Shown here: one piece after another, positions 42,289 through 54,049 of the stretch | Numbering within the stretch: position 1 is the stretch's first letter | Layout of the letters: each line of letters opens with the position of its first letter | Assembly (NCBI RefSeq): GCF_004167665.1 | Contig: NZ_SEWE01000024.1 | Coordinates: 1-64,000, forward strand | DNA: 64,000 nt | Direction of reading: 5' to 3' | Source of the DNA: Hymenobacter persicinus | GTDB lineage: Bacteria > Bacteroidota > Bacteroidia > Cytophagales > Hymenobacteraceae | The notes under the pieces: model-generated | Databases searched by the model: none | The model's input: only the letters and a program-made list of their open reading frames with translations | Told to the model about the DNA's origin: nothing | Made by a program: the position numbers and the translations under genes

Positions 42289-43791
42289 ATGCAGCACCCG
42301 CTTTCGCTTTACAATACCCTTACCCGCAAAAAAGAGCTTTTCACGCCCGTCCACGCGCCGTTTGCCGGCGTGTACCTGTGCGGCCCGACCGTCTACAGTG
42401 AGGCTCACATCGGCAACGCCCGCGGGCCGGTAGTGTTCGACGTGCTGACGCGCTACCTGCGCCACCTCGGCTACACCGTGCGCTACGTGCGCAACATCAC
42501 CGACGTGGGCCACTTAGAAAGCGACGCCGACGAGGGCGAGGACAAGATGGCCAAGGCCGCCCGGGCCCGCCACATCGAGCCCATGCAGATTGCCGAGCAG
42601 TACGCCAACCTCTACCAGCGCCACATTGAGGTGCTGGGCTGCTTACCGCCCGACATTCAGCCCCGGGCCACCGGCCACATCACCGAGCAGATTCAGCTGA
42701 TTGAGGAAATCCTGGCCAACGGCTTCGCTTACGAAGTCAATGGCTCGGTGTACTTCGATGTGCCCGCCTACAACGCCGCCGGCCGCGCCTACGGCAAGCT
42801 CTCCAACCGCGTGGTGGAGGAGCTGCTGGCCGGCTCCCGCGACAACCTCGCCGGGCAGGACGAGAAACGCTCCGCCGCAGACTTTGCGCTCTGGAAAAAG
42901 GCCGCGCCCGAACACCTGATGCACTGGCCTTCGCCCTGGGGCGAGGGATTCCCGGGCTGGCACCTGGAGTGCTCGGCCATGAGCCGCAAGTACCTGGGCC
43001 AGCTCTCCGACATCCACGGCGGCGGGCTGGATCTGATGTTCCCCCACCACGAGTGCGAAATAGCCCAGAGCCAGGGCAGCCACTCCCACTCCGACGAGGC
43101 CCGGATCTGGATGCACCACAACATGATTACGGTGAACGGAACCAAGATGAGCAAGTCGGCGGGCAACTTCGTGACCATCTCCGAGCTGTTTGAGGGCACC
43201 AACAACACCCTGTCGCAGGCGTACTCGCCGATGGTGGCGCGCTTCTTCCTGCTCCAGGCTCACTACCGCAGCCCCGTTGACATTTCCGACGACGCACTGC
43301 AGGCCTCGCGTAAGGGCTACCGCAAGCTCATGAACGGCCTGCGCCTGCTCGACAAGCTCCAACTACCCGAGGGCGTTGCGCCCGACGCCGATACTGAAAA
43401 AGGCGACGCCGAGCTGCGCAAGCTCGTGGCCGATGTGTTCGTAGGCCTCAACGACGACCTGAACACGGCCAAGGCCTTGGCCAACTTGTTTAACTTGGTG
43501 CGCAAGTTCAACGGCTTCTTCGCCAACCTCGCCACGCTGGCCGCGGTGAGCAAGGCTGCCTTGGACGAGGCTACTACGGCTTACCGCACGCTGGTTGTCG
43601 ACGTGCTAGGCCTCGTGGATGAGCCCCGGGCCAACGCCGAGGATCTGCTGGCTCTCACGCTCGGGTTTTACCAGGAAGCCAAAACCAGCAAGGACTACGG
43701 CAAGGTCGACCAGATTCGGGCCGCCCTGAAAGGCCAGGGCATTATTATCAAAGACCTCAAAACCGGCATCGACTGGGCATATGAAGAATAA
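42289..43791 (+). CDS. cysS: Cysteinyl-tRNA synthetase
   Basis: 500 residues from the ATG at 42289 (MQHPLSLYNTLTRKKELF). Charges tRNA(Cys). Class I signatures are intact: the HIGH-type motif in VYSEAHIGNARG after CGPTV (zinc Cys), further zinc ligands in WHLECSAMS and HGGGLDLMFPHHE, and the KMSKS loop in NGTKMSKSAGN. The C-terminal DALR-type helical region ends KTGIDWAYEE. The frame begins at 42217, but those 24 residues precede the promoter element and are not family-like. It overlaps the next gene by 11 nt. Confidence 0.97.
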   Translation: MQHPLSLYNTLTRKKELFTPVHAPFAGVYLCGPTVYSEAHIGNARGPVVFDVLTRYLRHLGYTVRYVRNITDVGHLESDADEGEDKMAKAARARHIEPMQIAEQYANLYQRHIEVLGCLPPDIQPRATGHITEQIQLIEEILANGFAYEVNGSVYFDVPAYNAAGRAYGKLSNRVVEELLAGSRDNLAGQDEKRSAADFALWKKAAPEHLMHWPSPWGEGFPGWHLECSAMSRKYLGQLSDIHGGGLDLMFPHHECEIAQSQGSHSHSDEARIWMHHNMITVNGTKMSKSAGNFVTISELFEGTNNTLSQAYSPMVARFFLLQAHYRSPVDISDDALQASRKGYRKLMNGLRLLDKLQLPEGVAPDADTEKGDAELRKLVADVFVGLNDDLNTAKALANLFNLVRKFNGFFANLATLAAVSKAALDEATTAYRTLVVDVLGLVDEPRANAEDLLALTLGFYQEAKTSKDYGKVDQIRAALKGQGIIIKDLKTGIDWAYEE

Positions 43792-49154: not shown

Positions 49155-50444
49155 CTAGCAGCTTACTTCTTCCAGCGCCGGATTTTCCTCGGAGTGCACT
49201 GTGCCGGGGCGTACGTTGCCGGTGCGGGCCACGAAGGCGCCGGCTTTGCGCAGCGCGTCGCGGTGCTGGAGCAGGGCATCGAGCGGCACGTAACCCACCA
49301 CGTAGCCGTCCTCGTCGGCTTCCTCGCTGATGTCGGTGAAACCCAGCTGGTCGAGCAGCACCTCGTGGTCGGTGCGGAGGTAGATTTTCAGCTCCAGGTC
49401 GGTGGTGTAAGACAAGGGCGCGCCGAGCTTGGCGTAGGCGTAGCGGAAGTCGCCGCGCAGGGCGGCCAAGTCGGCCAGCACGGCCGAGCCGGTGGGGTGC
49501 CCGCCCGCGCCCCGCCCGCGCAGAAACTGCGAACCGGCAAACTCAGCTTCGATAACCACCCCGTTGAATTCTTCATCCACGGCGTACAGTGGGGAGTCAG
49601 AACTCACGAATTGGGGCGTCACGAGCACCGTGAGCTGGCCGTCGGGCAGTAGGTAGAGGCCGGCCACAACTTTCACTTTCTGGTCTGCCAGCCCGGCGTA
49701 GGCAATGTCGGTGGCGCTGATGTTTTCGATGCCCAGGTTGAGCACCTGCGCCGGACTCAGCAGCACTCCGTAGGCGTGGGCCGCCAGAATTACGGCCTTG
49801 GCCCGCGGATCGAAGGCGGCCATGTCGAGGGTGGGGTCGGTTTCGGCAAAGCCTTTGGCCTGGGCTTCGGCCAGGGCCGGGGCGTAGTCGGCCCCGTCGA
49901 GGCCCATGCGGGTCAGCACGTAGTTCGAGGAGCCGTTGACAATGCCGCTCACGCTGCGCAAAGGCTCCTGTCCGAAGTAGGCGTCCAGGGTGCGGATAAC
50001 CGGGATGCTGCCGCAAACTGCCGCCTCGTAGAGCAGCGTGCCGCCGTGGGTTTGCTGCAACGCCACTAGTTCGGCCAAGTGCTCGGCCACCATGGCCTTG
50101 TTGGCCGTCACGACGCGCCGCCCGTGGCGCAGGGCCGTGCTCACCAGCCGAAAGGCCTCTGCTGCGTCGTCGATAACCTCCACCAGTACGTCCAGGTCAG
50201 GGTCGGCGAGCAGTTCATCGGCGTGATAAGTGAAGCTTTCAGCGGGCAGGGAACGGACCTTGTCGGGGTTCTTAACGGCAATGCGCCGCACCTCGGCCCC
50301 GGCGTTGGGCTGCCGCCGCAGAATGTCGTACACTCCCTGCCCCACGCAGCCAAACCCGATCAACCCCACGCGCAGCGGGGCCGCCGGCGAAGGGGCCGGG
50401 CTGGGTTGGGCAAAACGGGAGCTATTAGGCGAAAGACTGGACAT
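49155..50444 (-). CDS. hom: Homoserine dehydrogenase
   Basis: 429 residues from the ATG at 50444. It reduces aspartate semialdehyde to homoserine, the substrate of MetX encoded just upstream. The NAD(P)-binding motif is VGLIGFGCVGQGVYDIL. Catalytic-domain landmarks are VTANKAMVAEHLAEL, GIVNGSSNYVLTRM and AEAQAKGFAETDPTLD, then the conserved segment FDPRAKAVILA. The C-terminal ~80 residues resemble an ACT-type regulatory region. It overlaps metX by 20 nt; the alternative ATG at 50483 would overlap by 59 nt. It is a stand-alone enzyme, not fused to aspartokinase. Confidence 0.95.
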   Translation of the reverse strand: MSSLSPNSSRFAQPSPAPSPAAPLRVGLIGFGCVGQGVYDILRRQPNAGAEVRRIAVKNPDKVRSLPAESFTYHADELLADPDLDVLVEVIDDAAEAFRLVSTALRHGRRVVTANKAMVAEHLAELVALQQTHGGTLLYEAAVCGSIPVIRTLDAYFGQEPLRSVSGIVNGSSNYVLTRMGLDGADYAPALAEAQAKGFAETDPTLDMAAFDPRAKAVILAAHAYGVLLSPAQVLNLGIENISATDIAYAGLADQKVKVVAGLYLLPDGQLTVLVTPQFVSSDSPLYAVDEEFNGVVIEAEFAGSQFLRGRGAGGHPTGSAVLADLAALRGDFRYAYAKLGAPLSYTTDLELKIYLRTDHEVLLDQLGFTDISEEADEDGYVVGYVPLDALLQHRDALRKAGAFVARTGNVRPGTVHSEENPALEEVSC

Positions 50445-51453
50445 AGAATCGTTCGAGAAGGTGAGTGATGGGGGCGGTTTCAATCAAAAAACCGTCGTGA
50501 CCGTAGTCGGAAGCCATTTCGGCGTAGTGGGCCCCGGGGATGTGGCGGACCAGCAGCAGCTGCTCTTCGGGCGGAAACAGCACGTCGGAGCTGATGCCGA
50601 TAACCAGGACGCGGGCCCGGATCTGGGATAGAGCGGCCGGCACGCCACCCCGGCCCCGGCCCAGGTGGTGGGAGTCCATGGCCCGGCTCAGCACCACGTA
50701 GCTGTAGGCGTCGAAGCGGGCCCCGAGCTTGGCGCCCTGATAGCGCTGGTAGGAGCTGGCCCGGTAGTCGGTGAGCTTGGCGTCGTCGGTTTCGGCCTGG
50801 CTGAGCCCGTAGGCTGCGTAGCTGCGGTAGCTGAGCAAAGCCACGGCCCGGGCCGCCTGCAAACCGGCCTGCCCGCCCTGGGGCGTAGCGGCGTGGTAGG
50901 TGGGGTCGGCGAAAATGGCCAGGCGCTGGGCCTCGTTGAAAGCCACCCCCCAAGGTGAGTGCTGGGCGTTGGTAGCCAATACCACTAGGTGCTCAAACAC
51001 GGCCGGCCGCTGCACGGCCCATTCCAGAGCCTGCTGCCCGCCCAAGGAGCCGCCAATCAGGGTGTGAATCCGATGCAGGCCCAGGTGGTGGCGCAACTGC
51101 TCGTGGGCCACCACCATGTCGCGCACCGTCACGAGCGGAAACTCCTGGTACAGGGGCGCCGCGCCGGCGGCAACCGGCGTCAGCGGACCAGTGCTGCCGT
51201 AGCAGGAACCCAGCACGTTGGCGCAGACGATAAACCAGTCGGCCGGGTCGAAGTGGCAGCCGGGCCCGAACAGGCCGGGCCACCAGCTCAGCACGTCGGC
51301 ATTGGCCGTCAGGGCGTGGCACACCCAGACGACGTTGGCGCCGTCGGGCCGGAGCGTGCCCACCGTGCGGTAGGCCACCCGCACCTGGGGCAGCACGGCG
51401 CCGCTTTCCAGGGACAGCGGCGCGGGCAGCGTAAATACCTCGTCGTGGGTCAT
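50425..51453 (-). CDS. metX: Homoserine O-acetyltransferase
   Basis: 342 residues, alpha/beta-hydrolase fold. It transfers acetyl from acetyl-CoA to homoserine to make O-acetylhomoserine for MetY. Landmarks: VVWVCHALTANADVLSWWPG, WFIVCANVLGSCYGSTGP, nucleophile elbow IGGSLGGQQALEWA (Ser), GISSDVLFPPEEQ (Asp) and YGHDGFL (His). It belongs to the MetX group rather than MetA. It lies between metY and hom on one strand, so substrate, activated substrate and sulfhydrylation are encoded together. Confidence 0.95.
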   Translation of the reverse strand: MTHDEVFTLPAPLSLESGAVLPQVRVAYRTVGTLRPDGANVVWVCHALTANADVLSWWPGLFGPGCHFDPADWFIVCANVLGSCYGSTGPLTPVAAGAAPLYQEFPLVTVRDMVVAHEQLRHHLGLHRIHTLIGGSLGGQQALEWAVQRPAVFEHLVVLATNAQHSPWGVAFNEAQRLAIFADPTYHAATPQGGQAGLQAARAVALLSYRSYAAYGLSQAETDDAKLTDYRASSYQRYQGAKLGARFDAYSYVVLSRAMDSHHLGRGRGGVPAALSQIRARVLVIGISSDVLFPPEEQLLLVRHIPGAHYAEMASDYGHDGFLIETAPITHLLERFYVQSFA

Positions 51454-51714: not shown

Positions 51715-53301
<1,587 letters not shown>

Positions 53302-53460
53302 CTAGCAACAGCACACGCAACAACAGCACATTCGCTCGGCCTCACGGGCCGAAGCCGGCCGCAGGGAAGCCACAACGCGAAAACCCATCAGCAAGCCGGC
53401 GTGCAGGGAGGCAGCCAGGGCGGATGGGGATAGGAAGGCGGAGAAAAGGGAGTTTTTCAT
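53302..53460 (-). CDS. 52-residue leader ORF ending in a poly-cysteine run
   Basis: ATG at 53460, stop TAG at 53302. The start reads MKNSLFSAFLSPSALAAS, the middle is Ala/Arg-rich, and the last nine codons encode Met-Cys-Cys-Cys-Cys-Val-Cys-Cys-Cys, immediately before the stop. Internal ATGs at 53388 and 53331 would give 28 and 9 residues and keep the Cys run. The ATG is 9 nt after the closing stem of the SAM riboswitch; metY starts 207 nt after the stop. A 7-bp hairpin (53335-53353) lies just before the Cys codons. Seven Cys codons in eight cannot plausibly serve a folded function here; the likely role is ribosome stalling when charged Cys-tRNA is scarce. I recognise no family. Confidence 0.75.
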   Translation of the reverse strand: MKNSLFSAFLSPSALAASLHAGLLMGFRVVASLRPASAREAERMCCCCVCCC

Positions 53461-53468
53461 GGTACTCA

Positions 53469-53580
53469 ACTTATCTGTCCCGCCGGCAGATGCCGAAACG
53501 GGCAGGAATTGGCACCTTTCGTACTACCGATGGTTGCCAGTGGGTCACGGAGCCTGTTCTCTCGCCACTTCTGTATAAAT
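53469..53580 (-). promoter_or_regulatory. SAM-I-type riboswitch upstream of the poly-Cys ORF and metY
   Basis: On the minus strand the SAM-I core is seen in order. P1 5' arm is UUUAU (53575-53579). P2 is AGUGG/CCACU (53565-53569 with 53539-53543). The invariant GGCAACC lies at 53532-53538 and pairs in P3 with GGUGCC of GGUGCCAAUUCC (53505-53516). A GC-rich P4 (about 53481-53503) is followed by the P1 3' arm ACAGAUAAG ending near 53470. SAM-I aptamers close P1 when SAM is bound. Here P1 ends 9 nt before the ATG of the small ORF, with no obvious terminator in between, so translational control is more likely than classical termination. Confidence 0.87.
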
Positions 53581-53629
53581 TCTTGAAAACTGCCCCACCG
53601 CTAGCGGGGGAGTACCGGATTGGTAGGTG

Positions 53630-53660
53630 CAAATGTACACCCGGAATTGAGAAGCGCAAA
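53630..53660 (-). promoter_or_regulatory. Promoter of the SAM-riboswitch/metY-metX-hom unit
   Basis: On the minus strand TTTG (53657-53660), exactly 19 nt, then TACATTTG (53630-53637): the full Bacteroidota consensus with ideal spacing. Transcription would start near 53626, ~45 nt ahead of the aptamer. A small hairpin built on ccgctagcgg lies between promoter and aptamer. Confidence 0.8.
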
Positions 53661-53698
53661 TCCGCGGAAAAGTTTCTGCGAATATTTTGGCGCCACAA

Positions 53699-53731
53699 AA
53701 AAACGCTGCTCCGGGTGGGAGCAGCGTTTTT
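53699..53731 (-). terminator. Terminator after the LysM gene
   Basis: A perfect 14-bp stem (53699-53712 with 53718-53731), loop gggtg, A/T tracts at both ends. It insulates the methionine promoter from the LysM gene upstream. Confidence 0.9.
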
Positions 53732-53758
53732 CAAACAAAGCGCAAAGGCAAAATAGCC

Positions 53759-54049
53759 TTACAGCGTGGGCAGGTTCAGCACCTGACCAACTTCGATGTG
53801 GTCGGGGTTGGAGCCGATAATGCCCTTGTTGGCGTCGTAAATCTGGTGCCACTTGGCGGCGTCGCCGTAGTGGTGCTTGGCAATTTTCGACAGGGAATCC
53901 CCGCTCACTACGGTGTAAGAAGTGCCAGTGCCCGCGGGAGCAGCGGCGTCTTTGTTGCCAAAAAAGTCGGTGTTGCCGGTGGTGCCGGGCTTAGGGGCCT
54001 CAACTGGTTTTTCTTCGCCTTTATTATTGAGGAAATCGAACAGTCCCAT
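53759..54049 (-). CDS. Small LysM domain protein
   Basis: 96 residues with no signal peptide. Residues 1-40 are hydrophilic (MGLFDFLNNKGEEKPVEAPK and a Gly/Thr linker). The C-terminal half is one LysM domain (SYTVVSGDSLSKIAKHHYGD to EVGQVLNLPTL), which normally binds GlcNAc-containing glycans such as peptidoglycan. The layout resembles the widespread potassium- or stress-linked short LysM proteins related to YgaU/Kbp, though without the BON domain. Cytoplasmic or released location cannot be decided from sequence. Confidence 0.88.
   Translation of the reverse strand: MGLFDFLNNKGEEKPVEAPKPGTTGNTDFFGNKDAAAPAGTGTSYTVVSGDSLSKIAKHHYGDAAKWHQIYDANKGIIGSNPDHIEVGQVLNLPTL

Follow-up and report, generated by a model that had tools for sequence, protein, structure and literature searches.

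A cysteine- and methionine-codon leader adjoining a SAM-I aptamer upstream of metY in Hymenobacter and other Bacteroidota: a putative two-layer sulfur sensor

In our study, the metY gene of Hymenobacter persicinus was found to be preceded by a SAM-I riboswitch aptamer and, directly after it, a short leader ORF whose tail consists almost entirely of cysteine codons. We consider it quite likely that this leader is a regulatory ORF, reading cysteine and methionine, to which the aptamer acts as a gate; no expression, ribosome-profiling or termination data stand behind this reading. If it holds, a single 5' UTR would contain a two-layer sulfur sensor. The locus was analysed within the window, that is, the whole stretch of 64,000 nucleotides of contig NZ_SEWE01000024.1, and the coordinates of its features are given in Table 1.

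Leader ORF and genomic context

The leader ORF (MKNSLFSAFLSPSALAASLHAGLLMGFRVVASLRPASAREAERMCCCCVCCC) was found on the minus strand, with the ATG at 53460-53458 and the TAG stop codon at 53304-53302. Its C-terminus was MCCCCVCCC-stop, and the last eight codons (CCCCVCCC) comprised seven cysteine codons and one valine codon, exactly as an earlier sequence-only reading had described. The same reading had placed the ORF between a SAM riboswitch and metY, which was borne out by the RF00162 and TIGR01326 matches; the start codon lies 7 nt 3' of the aptamer end. At gathering thresholds Rfam gave no match in the window other than the SAM aptamer, and no T-box was found beside it. When both strands of the 64 kb window were scanned, the pattern (TGY)3, up to three bases, (TGY)3, stop occurred only once. 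The leader peptide matched no NCBIfam family at E up to 1.

Table 1. Features of the metY leader and operon in the window
Feature	Coordinates	Strand	Basis
Promoter-like site, Bacteroidota-type, TTTG-N19-TAcaTTTG	53630..53660	-	only match listed, 53001-54000, minus strand
SAM-I riboswitch aptamer (RF00162)	53468..53581	-	69.9 bits against a gathering score of 44.4; full-length, model 1-108
Leader ORF, 52 codons	53302..53460	-	ORF reading; similar leaders in relatives
Putative regulatory codons, Met-Cys4-Val-Cys3	53305..53331	-	Cys run 53328-53305; Met codon 53331-53329 directly before
Stop-codon hairpin (GCTAGCC TGATTCC GGCTTAGC, one bulge)	53285..53306	-	pairing by eye
C/U-rich tract, candidate Rho-loading region	53265..53285	-	composition only; function inferred
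metY, O-acetylhomoserine sulfhydrylase, regulated gene	51715..53094	-	TIGR01326, 671.9 bits, cut-off 495.1
metX-like homoserine O-acetyltransferase, next gene	50425..51453	-	TIGR01392, 342.3 bits, below equivalog cut-off of 500
Homoserine dehydrogenase, third gene	49155..50444	-	NF004976, 304.3 bits, cut-off 205

The consensus TTTG-N19-TAnnTTTG, which we take to be a Bacteroidota-type promoter, was also found at related loci. In 46 of 47 loci of the genus such a site, its first box being TTTG or TTG, ended 164-181 nt 5' of the leader start, against 1/47 in the reversed-sequence control. The leader ORF and the aptamer are probably carried on one transcript, a judgement that rests on a consensus match and not on a mapped start. 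The locus has the make-up expected of a leader attenuator, namely a short 5' UTR ORF with a run of Cys codons, the promoter-like site being 5' of the aptamer.

Conservation of the leader

The best named matches to the MetY of the window were Hymenobacter species, and the genus sampled is accordingly of Hymenobacter type. The metY gene was present in all 61 Hymenobacter-type genomes searched, and the aptamer was found 5' of it in every one of them, in 54 within the upstream stretches first taken and in the other seven after longer upstream DNA was taken. At least three Cys among the last 12 residues were found in 58/61 leaders (48 near metY and 10 distant), while the leaders of the remaining three genomes (G025, G059, G060) ended in RMRMCWGC(W/R)M with only two Cys. 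The last 14 residues of the 47 full leaders of the genus contained 288 Cys and 86 Met among 658 residues, against 17 Cys and 15 Met among 1727 in the rest of the same leaders. The frequent leader end, judged by eye, was RMRMxCCxxCCCCC, with many variants. The distance from the leader stop to the metY start was 207 nt in the window and about 105-620 nt at the other loci listed; in 10/61 genomes (L306-L312, L047, L052, L060; L172) the leader lay roughly 1 kb from metY. L172, the sole distant locus that was read for genes, contained a peroxiredoxin-like gene (by eye, FYRGNWCPYC motif) between the leader and metY, as if it had joined the regulon. The metY of genome G005 (G005:C1:4244576-4245955) was 66% identical to that of the window and contained three stop codons in the aligned stretch; its aptamer and leader were kept despite these stop codons.

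Outside the genus, the order was sampled with 128 genomes. A close MetY was present in 81 of them, 72 of these outside the genus, and 40 upstream stretches were taken. The aptamer was found in 35/40 stretches, and a Cys tail (at least three Cys in the last 10 residues) in 26 of these 35 loci, the other nine having none; FSCCCCCCC, MCCCCCCC and SICCCMCCCC are examples of leader ends. Among the best 80 named loci the aptamer was present in 68, and 47/68 had at least three Cys in the last 12 residues. The named loci with the tail include Mucilaginibacter, Pedobacter, Pontibacter, Chryseolinea, Thermonema, Haliscomenobacter and Lewinella, genera which belong to several orders. Spirosoma, all four Algoriphagus, five of the six cultured Sphingobacterium isolates and Cyclobacterium were among the 21/68 loci without it. 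The genus, order and named sets share a few genomes. The sequence-only reading had expected that, were the ORF a sensor, related leaders would keep the Cys run while the remainder drifted; this expectation was clearly met by the counts in all three sets, and the table of residue positions showed a drifting peptide body with the regulatory codons kept.

Five loci without a Cys run before metY, namely L112, L118, L120, L135 (family f11) and L194 (Spirosoma arboris), contained a peptide of 13-18 residues that starts 9-10 nt after the aptamer and carries a CM motif (such as MLYxQQCMP). It may represent a leader of a different type.

A de-duplicated set of 93 diverse aptamer-to-metY leaders, with named Hymenobacter left out, was used for the statistics. 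In 53/93 leaders an ATG ORF began no more than 24 nt from the aptamer and carried at least four Cys among its last 12 residues, compared with 0.08% of dinucleotide shuffles. Of 37 runs of (TGY)4 or longer, 36 were in the first-ATG frame, and the Cys codon usage was mixed (TGT 206, TGC 101), so that the amino acid and not merely the bases is conserved. The last 16 positions of the 53 leaders held 529 non-Cys residues, 67 of them Met, against 5 Met of 1148 elsewhere; with the genus leaders taken into account, the Met enrichment of the tail is 15- to 30-fold. Met is thus frequent next to the Cys run and scarce in the leader body. This result is not built in, because the 53 leaders were chosen by their Cys count and not by Met. 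The simplest reading is that the Met codons are selected as a second signal, and it is not excluded that some of the AUGs are internal starts.

The start of the leader was found at a near-fixed distance from the aptamer. An ATG was present 3-15 nt 3' of the aptamer end in 32 of the 35 order loci, the background for windows of the same size being 0.15, and the P1 closing helix ends mostly 7-10 nt before the leader start codon. In translation-acting SAM-I switches the ribosome-binding site belongs to the 3' side of P1, according to the portion of the source available (PMC2258182). By this analogy the leader start is the site where such a switch would act, SAM binding and the effect on expression being inferred. 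Because the distance hardly varies, the aptamer appears to act on entry into the leader and not merely to lie beside it. Two elements are thus added to the sequence-only reading, which did not contain them: the apparent riboswitch action on leader entry and the Met codons of the tail, which, being concentrated there as well, are probably read besides the Cys codons.

RNA folding and termination signals

Folding of the leaders was compared with that of shuffled sequences. In 48 leaders of the genus the window over the stop codon had a mean z of -1.52, the lowest of nine windows, and the next window was unstructured (z 0.34). In 23 leaders of the order the mean z was -1.22 over the stop codon, -1.44 at 30-72 nt and -1.13 in the region preceding the stop; since the stop window was not the lowest here, its signal stands out less in the order than in the genus. 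The region 22-52 nt after the stop in the 48 genus leaders contained C 0.37, T 0.37, G 0.18 and A 0.08. Composition and folding together fit a C-rich, G-poor, unpaired stretch in the genus, in the absence of termination data.

No intrinsic-terminator-like site was found between the leader stop and metY in any of the 48 genus or 23 order leaders, shuffled sequences giving 0-3 of 48 and 0-1 of 23, respectively. Such a site was also absent from the minus strand between 52950 and 53800 of the window. Its absence between the leader stop and metY leaves room for Rho. Pairing of the Cys tail with the downstream RNA was no better than that of a control stretch (z -0.68 vs. -1.36 in the genus and -0.06 vs. 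0.06 in the order), so that no general antiterminator is visible. Consensus folding of 46 leaders of the genus yielded no structure. In one Hymenobacter subgroup, 7 of 9 leaders contained GCCCGTGYTG over the Cys run, complementary to CARCACGGGC located 108-111 nt after the stop, and one genome was changed on both sides of this long-range helix. The control stretch itself, 36-72 nt before the stop, was found to pair downstream better than shuffles in the genus, which remains unexplained; among the 48 related genus loci, 42% reached p <=0.05 for this stretch, compared to 12% for the Cys tail.

Other SAM riboswitches and other cysteine leaders

A total of 34 SAM switches of the genus were read, four of this genome and the 30 best-scoring ones, a choice that is biased toward high scores. 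A script assigned an intrinsic terminator to 23 of them, a Cys leader to six, both to none and neither to five. This terminator test covers only the first 110 nt after the aptamer and is therefore silent on the stretch beyond a leader. The gene types were assigned by eye. Three of the five switches with neither element were found before metH-like genes; among the five, L009 showed a terminator element by eye and L030 carried Cys/Met codons further inside its ORF.

The aptamer was present before cysH in all 30 genus loci read, of 42 found, and was followed by a GTG-start ORF containing Cys and Met, with a leader end such as QHGCCAMMGMACCC. At least three Cys were found in the last 11 residues of 20/30 cysH leaders; when the richest ORF was picked, which is a lenient choice, a Cys/Met-containing ORF followed the aptamer in 28/30. 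In this genome, an amino-acid permease gene was found with a SAM aptamer and a leader ending in GCCCCC, and the cysH leader was weak, with three Cys.

In a search of 395 genomes of the phylum, five Cys codons followed by a stop were found at 40 places in 33 genomes. The reversed control gave 28 places, not far below, and so the poly-Cys pattern alone means little. Thirty of the 40 places were read; 12 of them were short leader ORFs before a co-directed gene, and the other 18, without a sensible leader, were judged to be chance. The 12 leaders precede cysS (two), cysH, metY, a RimK-like ligase gene, PhyH-family genes (four), cobA/cysG, a sulfate-binding protein gene and cysE; apart from metY, each gene family was checked on one example only. 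A SAM aptamer was found only at the cysH, metY and RimK-like leaders, the cysS, cysE, cobA/cysG and sulfate-binding protein leaders having none. No Cys leader was found before cysS in the 30 loci of the class that were read (the best-scoring of 99 genomes), so the two cysS leaders of the phylum search are not general; the cysS of the window (42301-43779, plus strand) likewise showed no Cys leader in its upstream stretch.

Leaders L147-L150 (family f26, around 1500) ended in MRM followed by six to nine Cys and lacked a SAM aptamer. They were located 51-53 nt before a PhyH-family dioxygenase gene (Pfam tested on L147 only), and the link of this gene to sulfur is unexplained. A RimK-like ATP-grasp ligase gene follows a SAM aptamer and a leader in the Hymenobacter-type loci L145 and L033, where the leader has five or four Cys at its end. 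Genome G550 contained the identical poly-Cys pattern four times, on four contigs, perhaps in a repeated element.

An attenuator leader is expected to stand before genes for the metabolism of the amino acid that it reads, which was found to be the case, with the PhyH-family and RimK-like genes unexplained. Leaders before metY, cysH, cysS, cysE, cobA/cysG and a sulfate-binding protein gene fit the sensing of Cys-tRNA. The proposal of the sequence-only reading, that the ORF senses cysteine or Cys-tRNA and couples it to methionine synthesis, is thus supported by conservation and by the sulfur-gene context, and the sensing itself remains unproven.

Proposed mechanism and alternative explanations

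The arrangement suggests that the cell checks SAM first and then the supply of cysteine and methionine. When SAM is bound, P1 would be closed and the ribosome would be excluded from the leader. When SAM is low, a ribosome would translate the leader and meet the Cys and Met codons just before the stop. Scarcity of Cys-tRNA or Met-tRNA would cause it to stall in the tail, where it would open the stop-codon hairpin and shield the start of the C/U-rich tract, so that transcription would continue into metY. With both amino acids plentiful, the ribosome would finish and leave, the stretch would be exposed and transcription would end early, most likely through Rho. Expression of metY would then require two shortages at once, of SAM and of charged Cys- or Met-tRNA, because the codons can be read only by a ribosome that is able to initiate next to the aptamer. 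The sensing, the sign, the Rho step and the AND logic are all inferences, and stalling on starvation likewise has no data behind it; the Rho step taken alone is held only tentatively and is more doubtful than the gate itself. The metY product incorporates sulfide directly into homocysteine, and cysH has its role in the reduction of sulfate. When cysteine is unable to serve as the sulfur donor both genes are needed, and the proposed gate would suit both for this reason.

The folding signal at the stop codon and the subgroup helix over the Cys run would be expected of a classical attenuator, in which stalling on the Cys codons affects which of two hairpins, antiterminator or intrinsic terminator, prevails upstream of metY. 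Duplex energies, terminator scans and consensus folds were all against it, the helix being confined to 7/9 leaders of one subgroup; with no terminator-like site in either leader set or around the window's leader, and no general pairing of the Cys tail, we rejected this candidate as quite unlikely. Control of translation without any change in transcription, in which ribosomes terminating on the leader impede or promote translation of the next ORF and stalling alters this, has a precedent in mycobacteria, whose poly-Cys short ORFs are called cysteine-responsive attenuators in a title cited in PMC9094748. The long distances between leader and metY noted above (roughly 1 kb in 10/61 genomes), and the gene lying between them at L172, make direct coupling poorly suited, and this explanation is regarded as unlikely.

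The gate described above could also have the opposite sign, stalling lowering metY expression, or either signal alone could suffice for the on-state, since the sequence fixes no sign. Starvation for Cys, however, demands sulfur assimilation and the leaders sit before genes of this kind, and a leader readable only by a ribosome that starts beside the aptamer speaks against the other logic; we hold these variants to be rather unlikely. Cys-rich peptides are well known to bind metals, and the peptide itself might be functional, either as a small metal- or thiol-binding peptide or through a metal-dependent arrest. The peptide is, however, conserved little beyond its tail, its neighbours are mostly sulfur genes, and its Cys residues are at the extreme C-terminus, so that at the end of translation they would not yet have left the ribosome, lying in its centre or tunnel; a functional peptide is very unlikely. 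That the run is due to chance, or is a (UGY)n repeat at the RNA level not read as Cys, is barely credible. Such repeats are not rare, as the reversed-pattern control shows, but for the metY set this explanation is refuted by the kept frame (36/37) and by the shuffle null, far below the 53/93 leaders observed. The gated Cys/Met-reading leader remains the preferred reading.

Relation to known systems

Tandem SAM-I/T-box(Met) leaders before metX and metY have been predicted to be on when SAM is low and the tRNA is uncharged (PMC9481103). As far as the available part of that source goes, they share with the present leader the aptamer class, the kind of gene and the predicted logic, and differ in that their second sensor is an RNA binding uncharged tRNA. 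Here the second sensor would be a leader ORF with Cys and Met codons in its tail, starting directly after the aptamer.

Leader peptides with Cys runs in Actinobacteria had no conserved terminator, and Rho was proposed by the authors in 2005, according to the accessible text (PMC1262725). The poly-Cys short ORFs of mycobacteria (Canestrari 2020, cited in PMC9094748) are, from the title, leaderless; the sequence-only reading had invoked them as established attenuators. These systems resemble ours in that sulfur genes are preceded by a short ORF whose Cys codons form a run close to its stop, so far as their sources could be consulted. No riboswitch is mentioned in the parts consulted, the phylum is a different one, and the Met codons are an addition here. 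In contrast to leaderless ORFs, the present leaders start well downstream of the promoter-like site. The uORFC-8-2 motif before cysS of Rhodobacterales, for which ribosome-mediated attenuation was proposed (PMC8632094), is also a uORF with Cys codons; in the excerpt available, it differs by two tandem Cys codons inside a stem and an intrinsic terminator, and no riboswitch is mentioned there.

Riboswitches acting on small upstream ORFs are known from the Mbox/rv1805A of M. tuberculosis, where the riboswitch controls a uORF and Rho was invoked (PMC12810186), and from B12 riboswitches with uORFs, for which Rho was considered, the authors arguing against it for ppe2 (PMC11260477); both statements rest on partial views of the papers. 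These resemble our leader in that the riboswitch acts on the translation of a small upstream ORF and Rho was considered. Within the same partial views, their uORFs are not described as reading amino acids, and the ligand and phylum are others. In the tnaC of E. coli, free tryptophan arrests the ribosome via the nascent peptide, and the ribosome stalled by the stop codon shields a Rho site. A stalled ribosome beside the stop shielding a Rho site is likewise proposed here, whereas a run of hungry codons would take the place of the arrest on free tryptophan.

The leader is therefore not assigned to the classical terminator attenuators, the leaderless ORFs of mycobacteria or the T-box tandems, as it lacks a defining feature of each. 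The sequence-only reading knew of no described equivalent, and none was found: among the matches listed in the open-licence literature, no entry described a Cys leader joined to a SAM riboswitch, which does not prove that no description exists. The two halves are known separately; their combination, the added Met codons and the distribution over Bacteroidota did not appear among those matches.

On balance, we lean toward a hierarchical gate of Bacteroidota, in which the SAM aptamer would admit the ribosome and the codons would report Met and Cys, which would be a ribosome-read counterpart of the SAM-I/T-box tandem, would extend over several orders and would belong to a larger group of Cys leaders in the phylum that has not been described (cysS, cysE, cysH, cobA/cysG, sulfate-binding protein, RimK-like ligase and PhyH-family enzyme). 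If this is true, one short RNA would bring together an aptamer for a metabolite and a ribosome that reads codons, the end product and its precursors would be checked in order, and Bacteroidota would gain leader-peptide control of sulfur metabolism. The leaders would then be short, conserved and easily mutated test cases for how a riboswitch, a ribosome and probably Rho act together on a single transcript. The uncharacterised genes behind such leaders (PhyH-family and RimK-like) would become candidates for roles in sulfur metabolism.
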